NCBI GenBank assembly: GCA_937862935.1
Contig: CALMEO010000136.1
Location: forward strand, 1-34,144
Direction: 5' to 3'
From: an uncultured bacterium
GTDB lineage: Bacteria > Patescibacteriota > Gracilibacteria > Absconditabacterales > Absconditicoccaceae
Length of the DNA: 34,144 nt
The number at the start of each line of letters is the position of its first letter. Position 1 is the stretch's first letter. The notes beneath the pieces were generated by a model. That model made no database searches. It saw only the letters and a program-made list of their open reading frames with translations, and was not told where the DNA came from. Shown here piece by piece: positions 5,441-23,685 of the stretch. The translations under genes were made by a program, and so were the position numbers.

Positions 5441-6379
5441 ATGAACCTTACTCCTATCAAGATAGTTGTTGATGACATAAAAAGTATTAAAATCCAGTGA
5501 GCAACAAATATCGCTAAAGCAGGAATAAATGTTTTGAGCAAAGAAATCAAAACGCAGACTTTTAAAAATATAAAAGAATTTGATACCTTCCTTAAACAAG
5601 CAATTGTTCTGCTCAAAAACGCAAGAGCTACTGAACCTATGTTGTTTAATTGACTCAAAGCATGCTTAGCAGAGTATAAAAAGTTAAGTGAAAAAAAAGA
5701 GCAGCTAAAAACTATACAACTAGCACTTTCCAAAGTAGCTAAGGTATATGTACAAGATATCGAGACTGAGGAAGAATTAAGACCAATTATTGGAGCAAAA
5801 ATTATCAAAAAAAATATGAATATTATGACACACTGTCATTCGTGATCTGTAGTCAAATTACTAACAACAGCACATAAACAAAACAAAAAAATTCATGTAT
5901 ACAATACGGAAACAAGACCATTATATCAGTGAAGAAAAACATCACAAGATCTTGTCAAAGCAGGTGTCCCAGATACAATGATTACCGATAATGCTGCACC
6001 ATTTTTTGTAGATAATCTCTATGAATCTGACGTTTATATCGATATGGTTATTATCGGTTCTGATGCTATAAAAATTGATGGAAGTGTATACAACAAAGTA
6101 GGAAGCTTCTCTATCGCGCTAGCAGCTTGGCATTCTAAGATACCAGTTTATATCGTAGGAAGTTTGACTAAGGTAGATACAGAAAATACCGTAAAAATAG
6201 AACAAAGATCTGGTCAAGAACTACGATCAAATGCTCCGAAATGACTTGAAATTCTCAATTACGCATTCGATATGGTTCCTGCAAAATTCATAACATGAAT
6301 CATTACCGAATACGGTATTATCAAACCAAAAGATATCAAAAAAACAGTGAAAAAATACTATCCATGGATGATAAAGTAA
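5441..6379 (+). CDS. Ribose-1,5-bisphosphate isomerase (eIF2B-related family)
   Basis: A 312-residue protein of the eIF2B alpha/beta/delta superfamily, which also holds methylthioribose-1-phosphate isomerase. Motifs include 'THCHSG', 'YNTETRPLYQGRKTSQDL', 'TDNAAPFF', 'VIIGSDAIKIDGSVYNKVGS' and 'PVYIVG'. The catalytic pair known from the archaeal enzyme is present: Cys132 (in THCHSG) and Asp208 (in GSDAI). Six TGA glycines occur, several inside motifs ('HSG', 'YQG'). The enzyme converts ribose-1,5-bisphosphate to ribulose-1,5-bisphosphate, the RuBisCO substrate. RuBisCO and AMP phosphorylase genes lie downstream on the same strand, which favours this activity over the methionine-salvage isomerase. 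Confidence 0.9.
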
Positions 6380-6406: not shown

Positions 6407-8698
6407 ATGGTAGAAATACAGGAAATACAACATATTAGCAATAATGATAATCTTACTATTATGGTAGAGAAACAATTTTGAGTTTCTCGAAATACATTTA
6501 AAAAAACCAATAAGGATTGGTTAGAAAAAATGGCAAAAATACCAGGGAAAGACGAAAAATATACATGAACATTACAGCAAAATATGCGTATTAGAGAGAG
6601 AATATTACAAAATAACATACTTCCTTTGCATAGTTATACTGAGATGGTCAATAAGTTTTCTCCACAACACCAAAATGCAATCAAAGAAAGGTTTACTGAT
6701 AAAGAAATCAATACATATATTAGTAATTTGCCCAAAGAGCAGATAGCAGTATTTAATACTATGTCATCTCCCCAATTAATCTGATTTTTAGAAGAACAGA
6801 TACAATGAATAAATCAAAAAAAAGAAAAAATCCAACAAGAAACAGGTTTACAAGTTGAAACATCAGAGCAGATAGCTAATCTAACCAATTTGACAGAGAT
6901 ACAAAATAGGTTATTTGATTTTTTAGAGAAAAATAATCTTATAGAATTTAAAGTAAATAAGTTAAATAGAAGGTTTGAAAATGATATAATTGAAGATGCA
7001 TTCCAAAAAAAATTACAAGAATGTAAAGGCAAAAAAAATGAATATGATAAATTAGCTCAAAAATATTGAGGTGAAAAATGAGCAGACGAACACTTGAGAT
7101 ATATGTATATGTTGGATCAGACAAAAAAATCTGATACATATGCAAAATTGAGTGATGAATCAAAATCTGAATTCAATAAGATAATAGTGGATACATATGT
7201 TATGAATCAGTGATTAGATATAGATATGTCTGCTTTTTGATTTGAATCACTTTCTAGCGATGCATCTACGACTCTGGTTGATACCTACAGTGAAAACACT
7301 TCATATGCTGCGGTATTAAATAATATATATAGTGATAAAGATAATGATATTCAAAAATTTTTTGATAAACAAGAAAATAAACTCACTGAATTAGTACCAG
7401 AAATATGAAAAGATAAAGTATATTATACAAAGTTGCTTACCTTGTATCCAGAATTAGATACTATGAAAGATGGTAAAAAAGTCTCAGAATATATGAAATA
7501 TGTAGATGAGGACATGATAGTAAATAAAGATATTACCAATGAACAAAAAAAAATTATGGAAACACTAGTACCTATATTTAAAGAGCAAGCGAAAACATAT
7601 GAAGATGAACTTCTAGAAAAAGCAAATACACTTACACAAAAAGTTGCTATAGAACAATGTGTAGCTACATTAGAAATGTTTATGGATGTGGATATCAACG
7701 AAAAAGAAAATATCATCAAAAAGTTGAATATTTTAGATAACAAGGATGCTGTTTCTTCAGATTGGGTATTACATCTTGATGGTACTATTAATGGAAAGAA
7801 AATAAAACTCTCGTACAATCTTGCTACAGGTAAAGTAACATATAAAAATTTTTTAGGAAAGAAGAATGCTACTGACCAAAGCCCAATTTCTCTAGACGCA
7901 CAAGACAATGAAACAGAAGTTCCATTGATTGAGCTACCTACTTTGGGCGCATTTGTTGAAGGAGCAAAAAATATTGATTATTCGGAAATTATTCAAAAAT
8001 CTACTACGAGAGATGAATATGACAAAAATTTTATAGAAAAGATTCAACAATCAGTGAGGTTTACTAATATGTGAGAAAATACTTTACAAAAAGATGTTCT
8101 CAAAAAGGTTATCATAAAAGATATGATTGCACAAGATATAGTTGCACTAACATGAAAAGATATATCATTAAATCAAACAACGGACGGCTTGGTTACTAAG
8201 GAACAATATCCACAAATGTATGGATTATATAATTATCTCTATAGAAGTTTAGAATATTATTCTCTAAAGTCTATTGATCAACTACAATTATTTCAAAAAA
8301 ACATTATGACTTTACTCCAATATAAAAATACCATATGAACACAATCTACAGAGACCGTGATGAGATACAAAGAAAAAAATAATGAAATGTTTGTACTTCA
8401 AATATTAACAAATCAATCCGAAATTCCTCAAATGTCCTCATTCGATAATCAATGACCAGAAGAGAAATTATGAACATTCTTTAAGTGCTTCGAAAAACAA
8501 GCATGAGGTATAACTATCATTGATATAGAGATGATGAATGATTATTTTAAAGCAGCTACTGGAACCAATAAACAGAATAATGAAGTAGGCAAATGGAAGA
8601 GGAACCAATATTTTGATAATCTAGTAAATGATTTTGATACAAAGATATCTGGTGACCAAGCTAGCATAGATTTAGATGTACAATTAAAAACAGTATAA
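6407..8698 (+). CDS. Hypothetical protein, 763 aa, within the AMP-pathway block
   Basis: I do not recognise this large protein. The table-25 frame runs unbroken from ATG 6407 to TAA 8696-8698 through about 15 TGA glycines, so it is under coding selection. It has no signal peptide and no membrane segment. It is rich in Lys, Glu, Asp, Asn and Gln and mostly helical in appearance (for example 'EEQIQGINQKKEKIQQETG', 'EKANTLTQKVAIEQCV'). A short beta-like insert occurs near residues 450-475 ('SDWVLHLDGTINGKKIKLSY'). Only two cysteines were noticed and no metal or nucleotide motif. It starts 27 bp after the isomerase gene, so it probably shares its transcript, and precedes the RuBisCO promoter. Confidence 0.8.
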
Positions 8699-8855: not shown

Positions 8856-10316
8856 ATGGATAGTAAAGAACTTCTATCAACACTCAATGACCACCAATTG
8901 GCTTATGTTAATTTGGATTTGCCAAATCCTCAGAATGGTGAATATATGCTCTGTGCATTTCATCTTATCCCAGGAGGAAAATTAAATATTCTCCAGGCAG
9001 CTTGTGAAGTATCAGCAGAATCTAGTACAGGAACAAATTTTCTTGTAAATACAGAAACACCTTTTTCTCGTGAAATGAATGCACTTGTCTACAAGCTAGA
9101 TATGGAAAAAAATATCGTATGGATTGCATATCCTACAAGACTTCGAGATAGTTGAGGAAATGTACAAAACATTTTAACTTATATTGCAGGAAATGTTTTC
9201 TGAATGAAAGAAATTCAAGCATTAAAATTGTTGGATGTATGGTTTCCACCAACGATGTTGGAAAAATATGATGGACCAAGTTATACCTTAGATGATATGA
9301 GAAAATATCTCAATGTTTATGATAGACCTATTCTTGGTACTATTGTAAAACCTAAGATGGGACTCACTTCTGCAGAATATGCTGAAGTAGCCTACGATTT
9401 TCGAGTAGGAGGTGGTGATTTTGTAAAAAATGATGAACCACAGGCTGATCAAGACTTTTGTCCCTACGATAAAATGGTAAGACATGTAGCTGAAGCTATG
9501 TTCAAAGCAGTCAAAGAGACAGGAAAGAAAAAAGTACATTCATTCAATGTTTCAGCAGCTGATTATGATACTATGATTGCAAGATGTGAGATGATTAGAA
9601 ATTCATGAATGGAAAATGGTTCTTATGCATTTCTTATTGATGGAACAACAGCAGGTTGGATGGCAGTACAGACACTTAGAAGAAAATATCCTGACGTTTT
9701 TATTCATTTTCATAGAGCAGGACATGGAGCATTTACGAGACCAGAAAATCCTATTGGATACACAGTATTGGTCTTATCAAAATTTGCTAGATTAGCATGA
9801 ACATCAGGTATCCATACGGGTACCGCAGGCGTAGGTAAAATGGCAGGGACTCCTGAAGAAGACGTTACTGCTGCACACAATATCTTTGGTTTGGATGCTC
9901 CAGGGCATATCTTTCAACAATCATGGGGAACTATACCAGAAAATGATGAAGATTGGTTAAAAAAAGTCGAGGAAGATCATCATCAACATTTGACAAAAGA
10001 AGATGATAGTTGGAGAAATATTAAAAAATGTTGTCCCATTATCTCAGGAGGACTCAATCCTACTTTATTGAAGCCATTTATCGATGTAATGGAAAATGTA
10101 GATTTCATAACAACTATGGGAGCTTGATGTCATGCACACCCAGGTGGAACACAGAAAGGAGCGACAGCATTGGTACAAGCTTGCGAGGCATATACAAAAT
10201 GAATTGATATCCATGAATATGCAAAAGATCATGAAGAATTGGCTCAGGCGATAGAATTCTTTGAAAAAAAAGGAAATAAAGAAATAAAAAATGCAGAAAG
10301 AAGTGAAAGTAATTAA
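8856..10316 (+). CDS. rbcL: Ribulose-1,5-bisphosphate carboxylase, form II/III
   Basis: A 486-residue RuBisCO large chain with six TGA glycines (9153, 9201, 9606, 9798, 10125, 10200). Catalytic residues are all visible: Lys165 and Lys167 (VKPKMG), carbamylated Lys191 with Asp193 and Glu194 (GGDFVKNDEP), His286-Arg287 (FHRAGHG), His320 (SGIHTG), loop-6 Lys328 (GVGKM), Ser397 (SGGLNP) and the late phosphate loop (GAGCHAHPGG). Numbering nearly equals the Rhodospirillum form II enzyme up to Lys328. About 30 extra residues then precede Ser397, matching the insertion described in the Methanococcoides form II/III enzyme. It would turn ribulose-1,5-bisphosphate plus CO2 into 3-phosphoglycerate. Flanking isomerase and AMP phosphorylase genes indicate nucleotide salvage rather than a Calvin cycle. 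No small-subunit gene is present. Confidence 0.96.
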
Positions 10317-10676: not shown

Positions 10677-12191
10677 ATGAAAAAACAGATGAAAAATCTT
10701 TTTACTGCAAGAACCAAAATTATCGATATCCATGAAGGAGAGGATTTGGTCGTATTGATTAACGAACAAGATGCTTGGGAAAATGGGATAACAAGTATGG
10801 ATAAGGCATCAATTATCTATGATGATAAAGAGTTTGTTTTTGATGTGAGTTTATCCTCTCATTTTGTCCAGCGTTGAGAAATTGGGATATATAAGGATAT
10901 TCAAGAAAAATATGAGATAAAATCTGGTCAGTTGGTTACCATAGCATTTACCAAAAACAGTTCAGAATCTTTGGATGCACTCAAAAGATGATTGAATGGA
11001 AAAAGACTTAATCAAAAAGAGATTGCTGCTATTATGAAAGATATTTCAAACAATCGTTTCACTGACATTTTGACCACGTATTTTTCTGCGATGGGGTTTT
11101 TCTTTCCTTCGAAGGATGAGGATCTCTATCGGATGGCAAAAGCGATGGCAGAAGCAGGGGAAATGCTTCGTTTTCCAGGTATAGTCGCTGATAAACATTG
11201 TATGGGTTGAGTATCAGGAAATGAGACAACAATGATTATGATTCCCTTACTTACTTCACTTGGTATCAAGATGCCAAAGACATTTTCCAAGGCTATAACC
11301 ACACCAGCTGCGACAGGAGAATGTGTAAGTGTATTGATGGATATTTCATTTAGTAAAAAAGAAATAGAATATTTGGTAAAGAAAAATAATTGTTGTTTAG
11401 TGCGAGGTGGTGGATTAGATCTTGCTCCAGCTGATGAAAAGCTTATCAAGGTGGCTTATCCCTTATCTATGCAATCATATTCAAGGACAGTTGTAAGTAT
11501 TATGGCAAAAAAATATGCAATGGGAATCAATCATTCACTTATCGATATCCCGGTTTGACCAAGTGCTAAAGTGCCCGATATGAAAACAGCGAAGTGGCTC
11601 AAGAAAAAATACGAATACGTAGGAAAAAAACTTGGTATGAAAGTGCATGTTGAGATTACTCAAGCATTACAGCCGATTGGTGCATGAGTAGGAGCAGTGA
11701 TGCAGGTAAGAGAAGTTTTGAGAGTATTACAACAACACACAAAAAGACCTATAGATTTAGAAAAAAAAGCAGTACATCTTTCAGCAAAAATTATTGAACT
11801 TGTTGGTATGGCAAAAGGTAAAGATGCTGAAAAACTTGCTTACGGACAACTTATCAGTGGTAAGGCATGGACAATGATGCAAAAAATAATCGCTACACAA
11901 CATGGTGAGCCTAAAATTATGTCTGAAGATTTGAAATTAGCAACAATACAAAAAAATATCGTAGCAGAAAAATCTGGTAAAGTAAAAGATATCGATATGA
12001 AGGTGCTAAATGTTGCTGCGAGAACGCTTGGTTCTCCATTAGATTTGCAAGCAGGATTGTATCTTCACAAAAAGCTTGGTGATATCGTAAAAAAGGGTGA
12101 GATAATCTATACAATGTATGCTAATGATGAAGATAAAATAAGATTAACAAAAGAATTCCTAGATCAGAAAAAGATGTATATAATTAGCTAA
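10677..12191 (+). CDS. deoA: AMP phosphorylase
   Basis: A 504-residue member of the thymidine/AMP phosphorylase family. About 85 N-terminal residues form the extra domain typical of AMP phosphorylases, which is absent from ordinary thymidine phosphorylases (about 440 aa). Family motifs follow: 'DKHCMGGVSGNETT' (172-185, phosphate and sugar site), 'ITTPAATGEC', 'VRGGGLDLAPADEKL', and a C-terminal domain with 'GSPLDLQAGLYLHKKLGDIV'. TGA glycines are at 10875, 10989, 11208, 11556 and 11685; the one at 11208 is in the substrate loop. The enzyme releases the base from a nucleoside 5'-monophosphate with phosphate, giving ribose-1,5-bisphosphate. An out-of-frame ATG at 10669 overlaps the start region; ATG 10677 is the first in frame. 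Confidence 0.93.
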
Positions 12192-18423: not shown

Positions 18424-19206
18424 CTAGAGAGCATTATACTGCTCAATAATGTTTGCTAGTATTTTTCTGGCTGGAGCAGGGATTACGTGAGCTGTTCTCC
18501 ACAATTTATATGCCCGCCCAAATTCGGAGCGATCACTACCAAAGGCAGTGGGGAATTTTCTGAAGAAACTGTCTTCAAATTCCTTCCATTTAGGGTGATA
18601 CCACACACCATCGGTAGACGAGGTAGAATGGATTTTGTAGAATTTTGTGAATTCGTTGGCGTATTCTTTGTGGAATCCCTCAGTAGAGTACTGGTCCTTG
18701 AGATAGGGAAGAATATCTACATTTACTGAAGATACATTAAGTTTTTTTTTGAGCCAGGCGATGCGTGCATGCTCAGATAAAAAAACTTTTTGCCAGAGTG
18801 CAGGATTAGCAATGAATGCTTTCCGTAGGAAGAGATATCCTGACTCTTTGCATATATCCGATATTGCCCAACGGAATGAAGCAAATGAACCATCTGATTG
18901 GATATATTGGCAGGCATGCATAATATTGCCGCCGTTCCAGATAGGAACAATTCCCAGAGGGAAAAGGTTCATGTTGTTTAGTGTATCTTCAATTTCAGTC
19001 GCAGCAATGGCTTCATCGATTCTTTCTCTATCTGCCTTCTGAAATTGATCAACGAGGTTCTGAAGATCTGCTTGCTGCTGTTGGCAGTCAGCAAGTTGTT
19101 GCTGGTTCCCATTATCAGGTGTTGTGTGATTATTGTTCCCACCACCACAGGCAACCATACTTACAAGGATAGCTATTGCTATCATACTGTTCATAATTTT
19201 TTTCAT
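18424..19206 (-). CDS. Lipoprotein of unknown function, possibly acquired
   Basis: A 260-residue protein from ATG 19206 to TAG 18424-18426. It has a lipoprotein signal: basic start, hydrophobic 'MIAIAILVSMVAC' with the lipobox Cys at residue 20, then a polar linker 'GGGNNNHTTPDNGNQQQ'. A Gln-rich coiled-coil-like stretch follows (about 38-62), then a helical domain with several Trp ('FASFRWAI', 'KLWRTAHVIP') and no motif I know. It would sit on the outer face of the membrane. All 13 or so glycines use GGN codons and none TGA. The gene is visibly richer in G+C than its surroundings and has its own promoter and terminator. This points to recent acquisition from an organism with the standard code. 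Confidence 0.85.
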   Translation of the reverse strand: MKKIMNSMIAIAILVSMVACGGGNNNHTTPDNGNQQQLADCQQQQADLQNLVDQFQKADRERIDEAIAATEIEDTLNNMNLFPLGIVPIWNGGNIMHACQYIQSDGSFASFRWAISDICKESGYLFLRKAFIANPALWQKVFLSEHARIAWLKKKLNVSSVNVDILPYLKDQYSTEGFHKEYANEFTKFYKIHSTSSTDGVWYHPKWKEFEDSFFRKFPTAFGSDRSEFGRAYKLWRTAHVIPAPARKILANIIEQYNAL

Positions 19207-19428: not shown

Positions 19429-19456
19429 TTGCAATTATACCCAATTTTCCTATAAA
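19429..19456 (+). promoter_or_regulatory. Promoter of the L10-L12 operon
   Basis: TTGCAA at 19429-19434, a 16-bp spacer, TATAAA at 19451-19456. The predicted start, near 19463, is exactly at the 5' edge of the L10 leader element, which supports both calls. Confidence 0.65.
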
Positions 19457-19462
19457 ACTACC

Positions 19463-19572
19463 ATAACTACCCAAGACAGTAGGTTGCTAAACGCATAAAA
19501 CATCAATTCCTACCTAGGTTCACATACAGATAATATTTTTTGTATAAGAACCTTGCCAAAGGTCTTTTTTTA
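19463..19572 (+). promoter_or_regulatory. Ribosomal protein L10 leader with attenuator
   Basis: The element carries the L10-leader hallmark: ACCCAAGACAGTAGGTTG on the 5' side and ATTCCTACCTAGGTTC on the 3' side, with AGTAGG pairing CCTAC(C). Equivalent AGACAGTAGG/CCTACC leaders bind L10(L12)4 in other bacteria and control rplJL. Downstream, ACCTT (19550-19554) and AAGGT (19559-19563) plus seven T form a terminator. The segment GAACCT (19548-19553) can instead pair with AGGTTC (19516-19521). Terminator and antiterminator are thus mutually exclusive, as expected for autogenous attenuation. Confidence 0.7.
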
Positions 19573-19573
19573 A

Positions 19574-19712
19574 ATTAAAAATGAATAATACAAAATAAAT
19601 AATGAGAGAATGGTAAAATTTATAAGCTATGGTACCTTACAATAGTTTATAAAATACACAATCCAACATCATTCATTGTTAATCATTAATCATTAATCAT
19701 TTATTTATAAAG
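19574..19712. repeat. Intergenic imperfect inverted repeat before rplJ
   Basis: Same design as 350-474. ATGAATAAT words lie on the left. A central palindrome pairs TATAAGCTATGGTA (19621-19634) with TACAATAGTTTATA (19638-19651). The right side carries CATTCATTGTTAATC followed by tandem AATCATT copies (about 19680-19705). It separates the L10 leader from the rplJ start codon. Confidence 0.55.
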
Positions 19713-23118: not shown

Positions 23119-23685
23119 ATGCAAAAGTATGATGTAGTGTTGTTGCTTGACGCGTCTTTATCAGAGACTAATCGTAAAGAGGTGGTTTCTGAATTTGAAA
23201 AACTCATCAAAAAAAATATCGTTCAACAAGATGATATGGGGCTCCAACAATTAGCCTACAATTTAGGGAATAAAGCTTGAAATGATAAGGCATATGTGTA
23301 TTCATATTGTATCGAGGCGCAAGCTGAAGATTTGGATATGATAAAAAAGAATGTCTTGTATAATAAAGCTATTAAGAGATATTTCATTTTCAAAATGAAT
23401 AAAAATGACAATTTTGCTTTATTTGAGAAAGTTAATGATGAACTTAAAGCAATTATAGAAACATGGGATGCTAAGAAACTTTGACAAAAAGTAAATTTTT
23501 TCGCTGATAAGAAAAACGAGAAATATCTTGATCGAAAATCAATATCAATATTAAAGAAATATGTCACGAGATTTGGTAATATTAAACCAAGAGCATATAC
23601 ACAAAATTCTGTAGGTACACAAAAGAAACTCAAAACAGCAATTCTTAGAGCTAGAGAACTCGGATTTATAGCGTATAAAAAATAA
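23119..23685 (+). CDS. rpsF-rpsR: Fused ribosomal proteins S6-S18
   Basis: One 188-residue frame holds two ribosomal proteins. Residues 1 to about 115 are S6: 'MQKYDVVLLLDASLSE', 'LQQLAYNLGNKAGNDKAYVY', 'NVLYNKAIKRYFIFKM'. Residues about 130-188 are S18: 'YLDRKSISILKKYVTRFGNI', 'KPRAYTQNSVGTQKKLKTAI', 'LRARELGFIAYKK'. The link contains TGA at 23482-23484 (codon 122), read as glycine. No ATG, GTG or TTG start in this frame precedes the S18 part after that codon, so S18 can be made only by reading UGA. S6 and S18 bind each other on the small-subunit platform and are usually separate neighbours (rpsF-ssb-rpsR). The gene starts 27 bp after tsf. Confidence 0.9.

Follow-up and report, generated by a model that had tools for sequence, protein, structure and literature searches.

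In other bacteria, S6 and S18, two ribosomal proteins of the small subunit, pair as a heterodimer prior to rRNA binding (PMC4647458). This bS6/bS18 heterodimer is made of two chains, and in the rpsF-ssb-rpsR operon the gene for SSB lies between those for S6 and S18. Covalent fusions are described for ribosomal proteins of eukaryotes: eS31 and eL40 are the C-terminal parts of ubiquitin-RPS27a and ubiquitin-RPL40 (PMC10296562). The locus reported here lies in the window, by which we mean the whole 34,144-nucleotide stretch of DNA that was analysed; it comes from one of a group of tiny, uncultured bacteria in which UGA encodes glycine. The locus shares with the bacterial heterodimer the same domains, the operon order, the S6 fold and, probably, the RNA-binding arginines of S18, whereas S6 and S18 are here encoded as a single chain. 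As in the ubiquitin fusions, the C-terminal part is a ribosomal protein; in contrast to them, the partner is ribosomal as well. The arrangement of these known ribosomal proteins is new and repeated. In agreement with the original prediction, which knew of no description of such a fusion, none was found in the open literature searched.

The rpsF-rpsR fusion gene (23119..23685, plus strand, as are all features of the gene given below) encodes 188 amino acids followed by TAA when read with genetic code 25. Only two codons read differently with table 11, TGA 54 (23278..23280), within the S6 part, and TGA 122 (23482..23484), both decoded as glycine. The S6 profile PF01250 matches residues 3–92 (23125..23394) with 43.8 bits (cut-off 27), and the S18 profile PF01084 matches residues 134–184 (23518..23670) with 44.2 bits (cut-off 21). 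NCBIfam also names both parts but below threshold, S6 with 38.3 bits (TIGR00166, cut-off 42.9) and S18 with 35.1 bits (TIGR00165, cut-off 38.75); annotation may therefore overlook S6 or S18 in such genomes and count them as absent. A separate rpsR, which had been named as a possible refutation, was looked for in the whole genome (1.32 Mb in 141 contigs, 95% complete), where no second S6 or S18 was found above cut-off. Likewise, none of the three start codons considered (ATG, GTG and TTG) occurs in frame beyond codon 100 of the fused gene, so that the S18 part has no ordinary start of its own, as had been stated. A search for an rpsF leader RNA in the window and at 20 loci gave no hit at the Rfam threshold.

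The same fusion, which was to be sought in relatives, indeed occurs in many of them. A search of 59 genomes gave full-length matches throughout the genus, in each of its eight other genomes, and in many members of the family, and the fused frame is also present in seven public contigs, including candidate division SR1 and Gracilibacteria records. Many of the surveyed genomes are fragmented assemblies. S18 was detected in 47 of 49 family genomes; in 30 of these 47 it shares an intact frame with S6, 16 have separate genes and one (G031) has a broken frame. The covalent fusion originally proposed is thus real, with both Pfam domains in one frame that is conserved across many genomes. Three candidates for long fusions (G016, G025 and G032) were rejected, each having a stop codon and a gap of 30–66 nt. 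In one genus with split genes (g18; loci L031, L044, L093, L094 and L095), S6 ends in a long acidic, glutamate-rich tail that the fused proteins lack.

Twenty-eight genomes with the intact fused frame, belonging to 9 genera, make up what we call the main clade. On the rpoC tree this clade comprises 31 rows with a support of 94–95, S18 being undetected in two of them. Grouping the main clade with G015 was not rejected (p-AU 0.93), whereas the tree test rejected a grouping of every fused row, G034 among them, into a single clade (p-AU 1.8e-57). G034 groups with the split genome G014 on this tree and its linker differs, and it was probably fused separately; it looks like a third origin. Another fusion was found in family f28, from the same phylum but another class, where S6 and S18 are joined in all five genomes with S18 (fusion loci L160, L162, L163 and L164) and where the frame contains no UGA. 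A scan of 380 genomes from 314 genera of the phylum gave full-length matches only in the window genome and in these five f28 genomes (E values of 1.2e-51 to 2.8e-76), the next best match, at 2.7e-20, having an internal stop. As judged from sequence, the number of independent origins is at least three, or two if G034, a single unconfirmed genome, is left aside.

The linker (residues 93–133, 23395..23517) is about 41 residues long and corresponds to the former C-terminal tail of S6 joined to the former N-terminal arm of S18. Its length is the same in the 28 main-clade genomes, the alignment being free of gaps over residues 93–141. A comparison of seven close genomes gave dN/dS values of 0.074 for S6, 0.10 for the linker, 0.046 for the linker core (residues 114–133) and 0.153 for S18. 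The linker core is under strong purifying selection, and the constant length and low dN/dS indicate that this is the frame in which the linker is translated and that selection maintains it. A conserved basic motif, [KR][KR]xG[QN][KR], surrounds the junction, about where S18 starts in split relatives.

AlphaFold2 models of 30 fused proteins, predicted as whole chains, have a mean pLDDT of 89.2 and a pTM of 0.84, with values of only 71–78 at residues 111–130; a helix is predicted at residues 102–114 of the linker. The pTM suggests that the S6 and S18 domains have a defined mutual placement in the predicted chain. The S6 chain of a 70S ribosome fits residues 1–98 of the model with a Z of 15.8 and an rmsd of 1.3 across 95 residues; the list of structural matches is filled by S6 entries and is hence uninformative on the S18 part. 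No PDB chain matched both parts in a sequence search, in which S6 and S18 hit different chains. Two arginines of the S18 part, R177 and R179, are invariant in the alignment of the fused proteins. In an alignment by eye with the E. coli sequence, they probably correspond to R61 and R63 of S18, with leucine 176 in the place of K60. In E. coli, K60, R61 and R63 contact RNA or matter for RNA binding (PMC4647458). Our reading of these data, to which we assign a probability of about 85%, is that the gene encodes one permanent chain, bS6-linker-bS18, that assembles as a single unit on the 30S platform.

The main rival to an uncut chain is post-translational cleavage, in which the fusion would be a precursor, translated whole and then cut by a protease within the linker to release S6 and S18. 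Ubiquitin-ribosomal protein fusions of eukaryotes do get cut. The basic motif at the former S18 start could be read as a cleavage site, and the confidence of the AlphaFold2 models is lowest around it. However, such a site requires no constant linker length, yet this length is constant over 9 genera, and the motif is missing from the other fusions (G015, G034 and family f28). We consequently regard cleavage as unlikely. Another rival is that S18 is additionally made on its own, from a start inside the fused frame. Some genomes do have GTG, TTG or ATG at or near codon 125, and G015 reads ATG AAG AAA AAA where the old start stood. Nevertheless, such codons are absent from the gene of the window past codon 100 and, between aligned codons 112 and 140, from roughly half of the main-clade genomes, which makes an internal start very improbable. 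An assembly or sequencing error that deleted a stop and a start, named at the outset as a possible refutation, was checked for and not found. Errors or changes do occur in these assemblies, as illustrated by G031 (locus L024, minus strand, about 1700–1800), where the fused gene has a one-base frame break and the two sister genomes are intact. That 28 genomes from 9 genera, and the seven public contigs, all show this one uninterrupted frame refutes this explanation for the main clade and leaves it hardly conceivable as an account of the fusion; G015 and G034 are lone cases.

Just as hard to credit is a switch at codon 122, with UGA read either as stop or as glycine and S18 supply following UGA decoding, as the original prediction had it. 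Its best argument is that codon 122 is TGA in eight of the nine genomes of the genus, and in three others. Across the 28 main-clade genomes, however, only these 11 have TGA and the remaining 17 have GGN. The reading of this codon as glycine therefore stands (28/28), but its role in deciding the length of S6 does not: TGA 54, which the prediction did not mention, lies upstream and would halt translation first, giving a product that ends at residue 53 instead of a normal-length S6. UGA is moreover a routine glycine codon in the window genome (20 in rpoB and 19 in rpoC, or 20% of the rpoC glycines), so that every gene depends on UGA decoding to the same degree. Retention of TGA at codon 122 resembles that at rpoC glycines, where 4 of the 18 TGA columns of the window genome stay TGA in all seven close genomes, and codon 122 is accordingly not special but an ordinary glycine codon. 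The f28 fusion, with no UGA in its frame, further shows that fusion is independent of UGA. These observations also dispose of UGA capture, the conversion of an old UGA stop of S6 into glycine, since in split members of the family that use code 25 the S6 gene stops at TAA or TAG. The fusion is nested within a family that uses UGA as a sense codon throughout, so that reassignment preceded it.

With the uncut bS6-linker-bS18 chain as the preferred reading, the single chain would replace the S6:S18 heterodimer on the 30S platform. Because S6 and S18 pair before rRNA binding in other bacteria, joining them would fix their supply at 1:1 and make the pairing step intramolecular. CPR genomes are reported to encode only some half as many ribosome biogenesis factors as is usual (PMC12641178), which makes simpler assembly a plausible benefit of the fusion. 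We infer both the uncut state of the chain on the ribosome and this benefit. In an uncut chain, moreover, S6 would have no free C-terminus and S18 no free N-terminus. The C-terminus of S6 is polyglutamylated in Pseudomonas (PMC11957791). RimI, the acetylase of the S18 N-terminus, had no match above cut-off in any family genome; as fused and split genomes alike gave none, no link between RimI and the fusion is seen.

The join is real, conserved over half of the family and of more than one origin, so that two essential partner proteins of the ribosome can turn into one chain. That two small-subunit proteins now form one uncut ribosomal chain, and have come to do so at least three times in Patescibacteria (main clade, G034 and f28), is likely in our view. 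If so, neighbouring ribosomal proteins would here be produced as one chain, something rare in nature, and repeatedly so in separate small-genome lineages; as a natural experiment, this would allow a test of what S6:S18 pairing contributes to 30S assembly.

Gene order in the family points to a route towards the fusion. In five deep split genomes the order is S6, ssb (PF00436), S18, as in the rpsF-ssb-rpsR operon. In contrast to that operon, neither the nearer split relatives nor the fused genomes have SSB between the two genes: in the former, a gap of 25–66 nt separates S6 from S18, and in the fused clade the gap is gone and ssb lies elsewhere wherever it was found. This succession of gene orders suggests that ssb was lost from between rpsF and rpsR first and that fusion came later. 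The short gap would then have been closed, and both the stop codon of S6 and the start codon of S18 lost.

Other features of the window were noted in passing. A RuBisCO gene (8856-10316, plus strand; NCBIfam PRK13475, 616 bits) lies near genes for a thymidine/AMP phosphorylase-like protein (10677-12191, plus strand) and an IF-2B family protein (5441-6379, plus strand). Proteins of these kinds belong to the AMP salvage route known from CPR bacteria and archaea. Two frames, of 763 aa (6407-8698, plus strand) and 260 aa (18424-19206, minus strand), have no Pfam match. Upstream of rplJ, a Ribosomal protein L10 leader RNA was detected at 19452-19577 on the plus strand, with 51.5 bits (cut-off 44).
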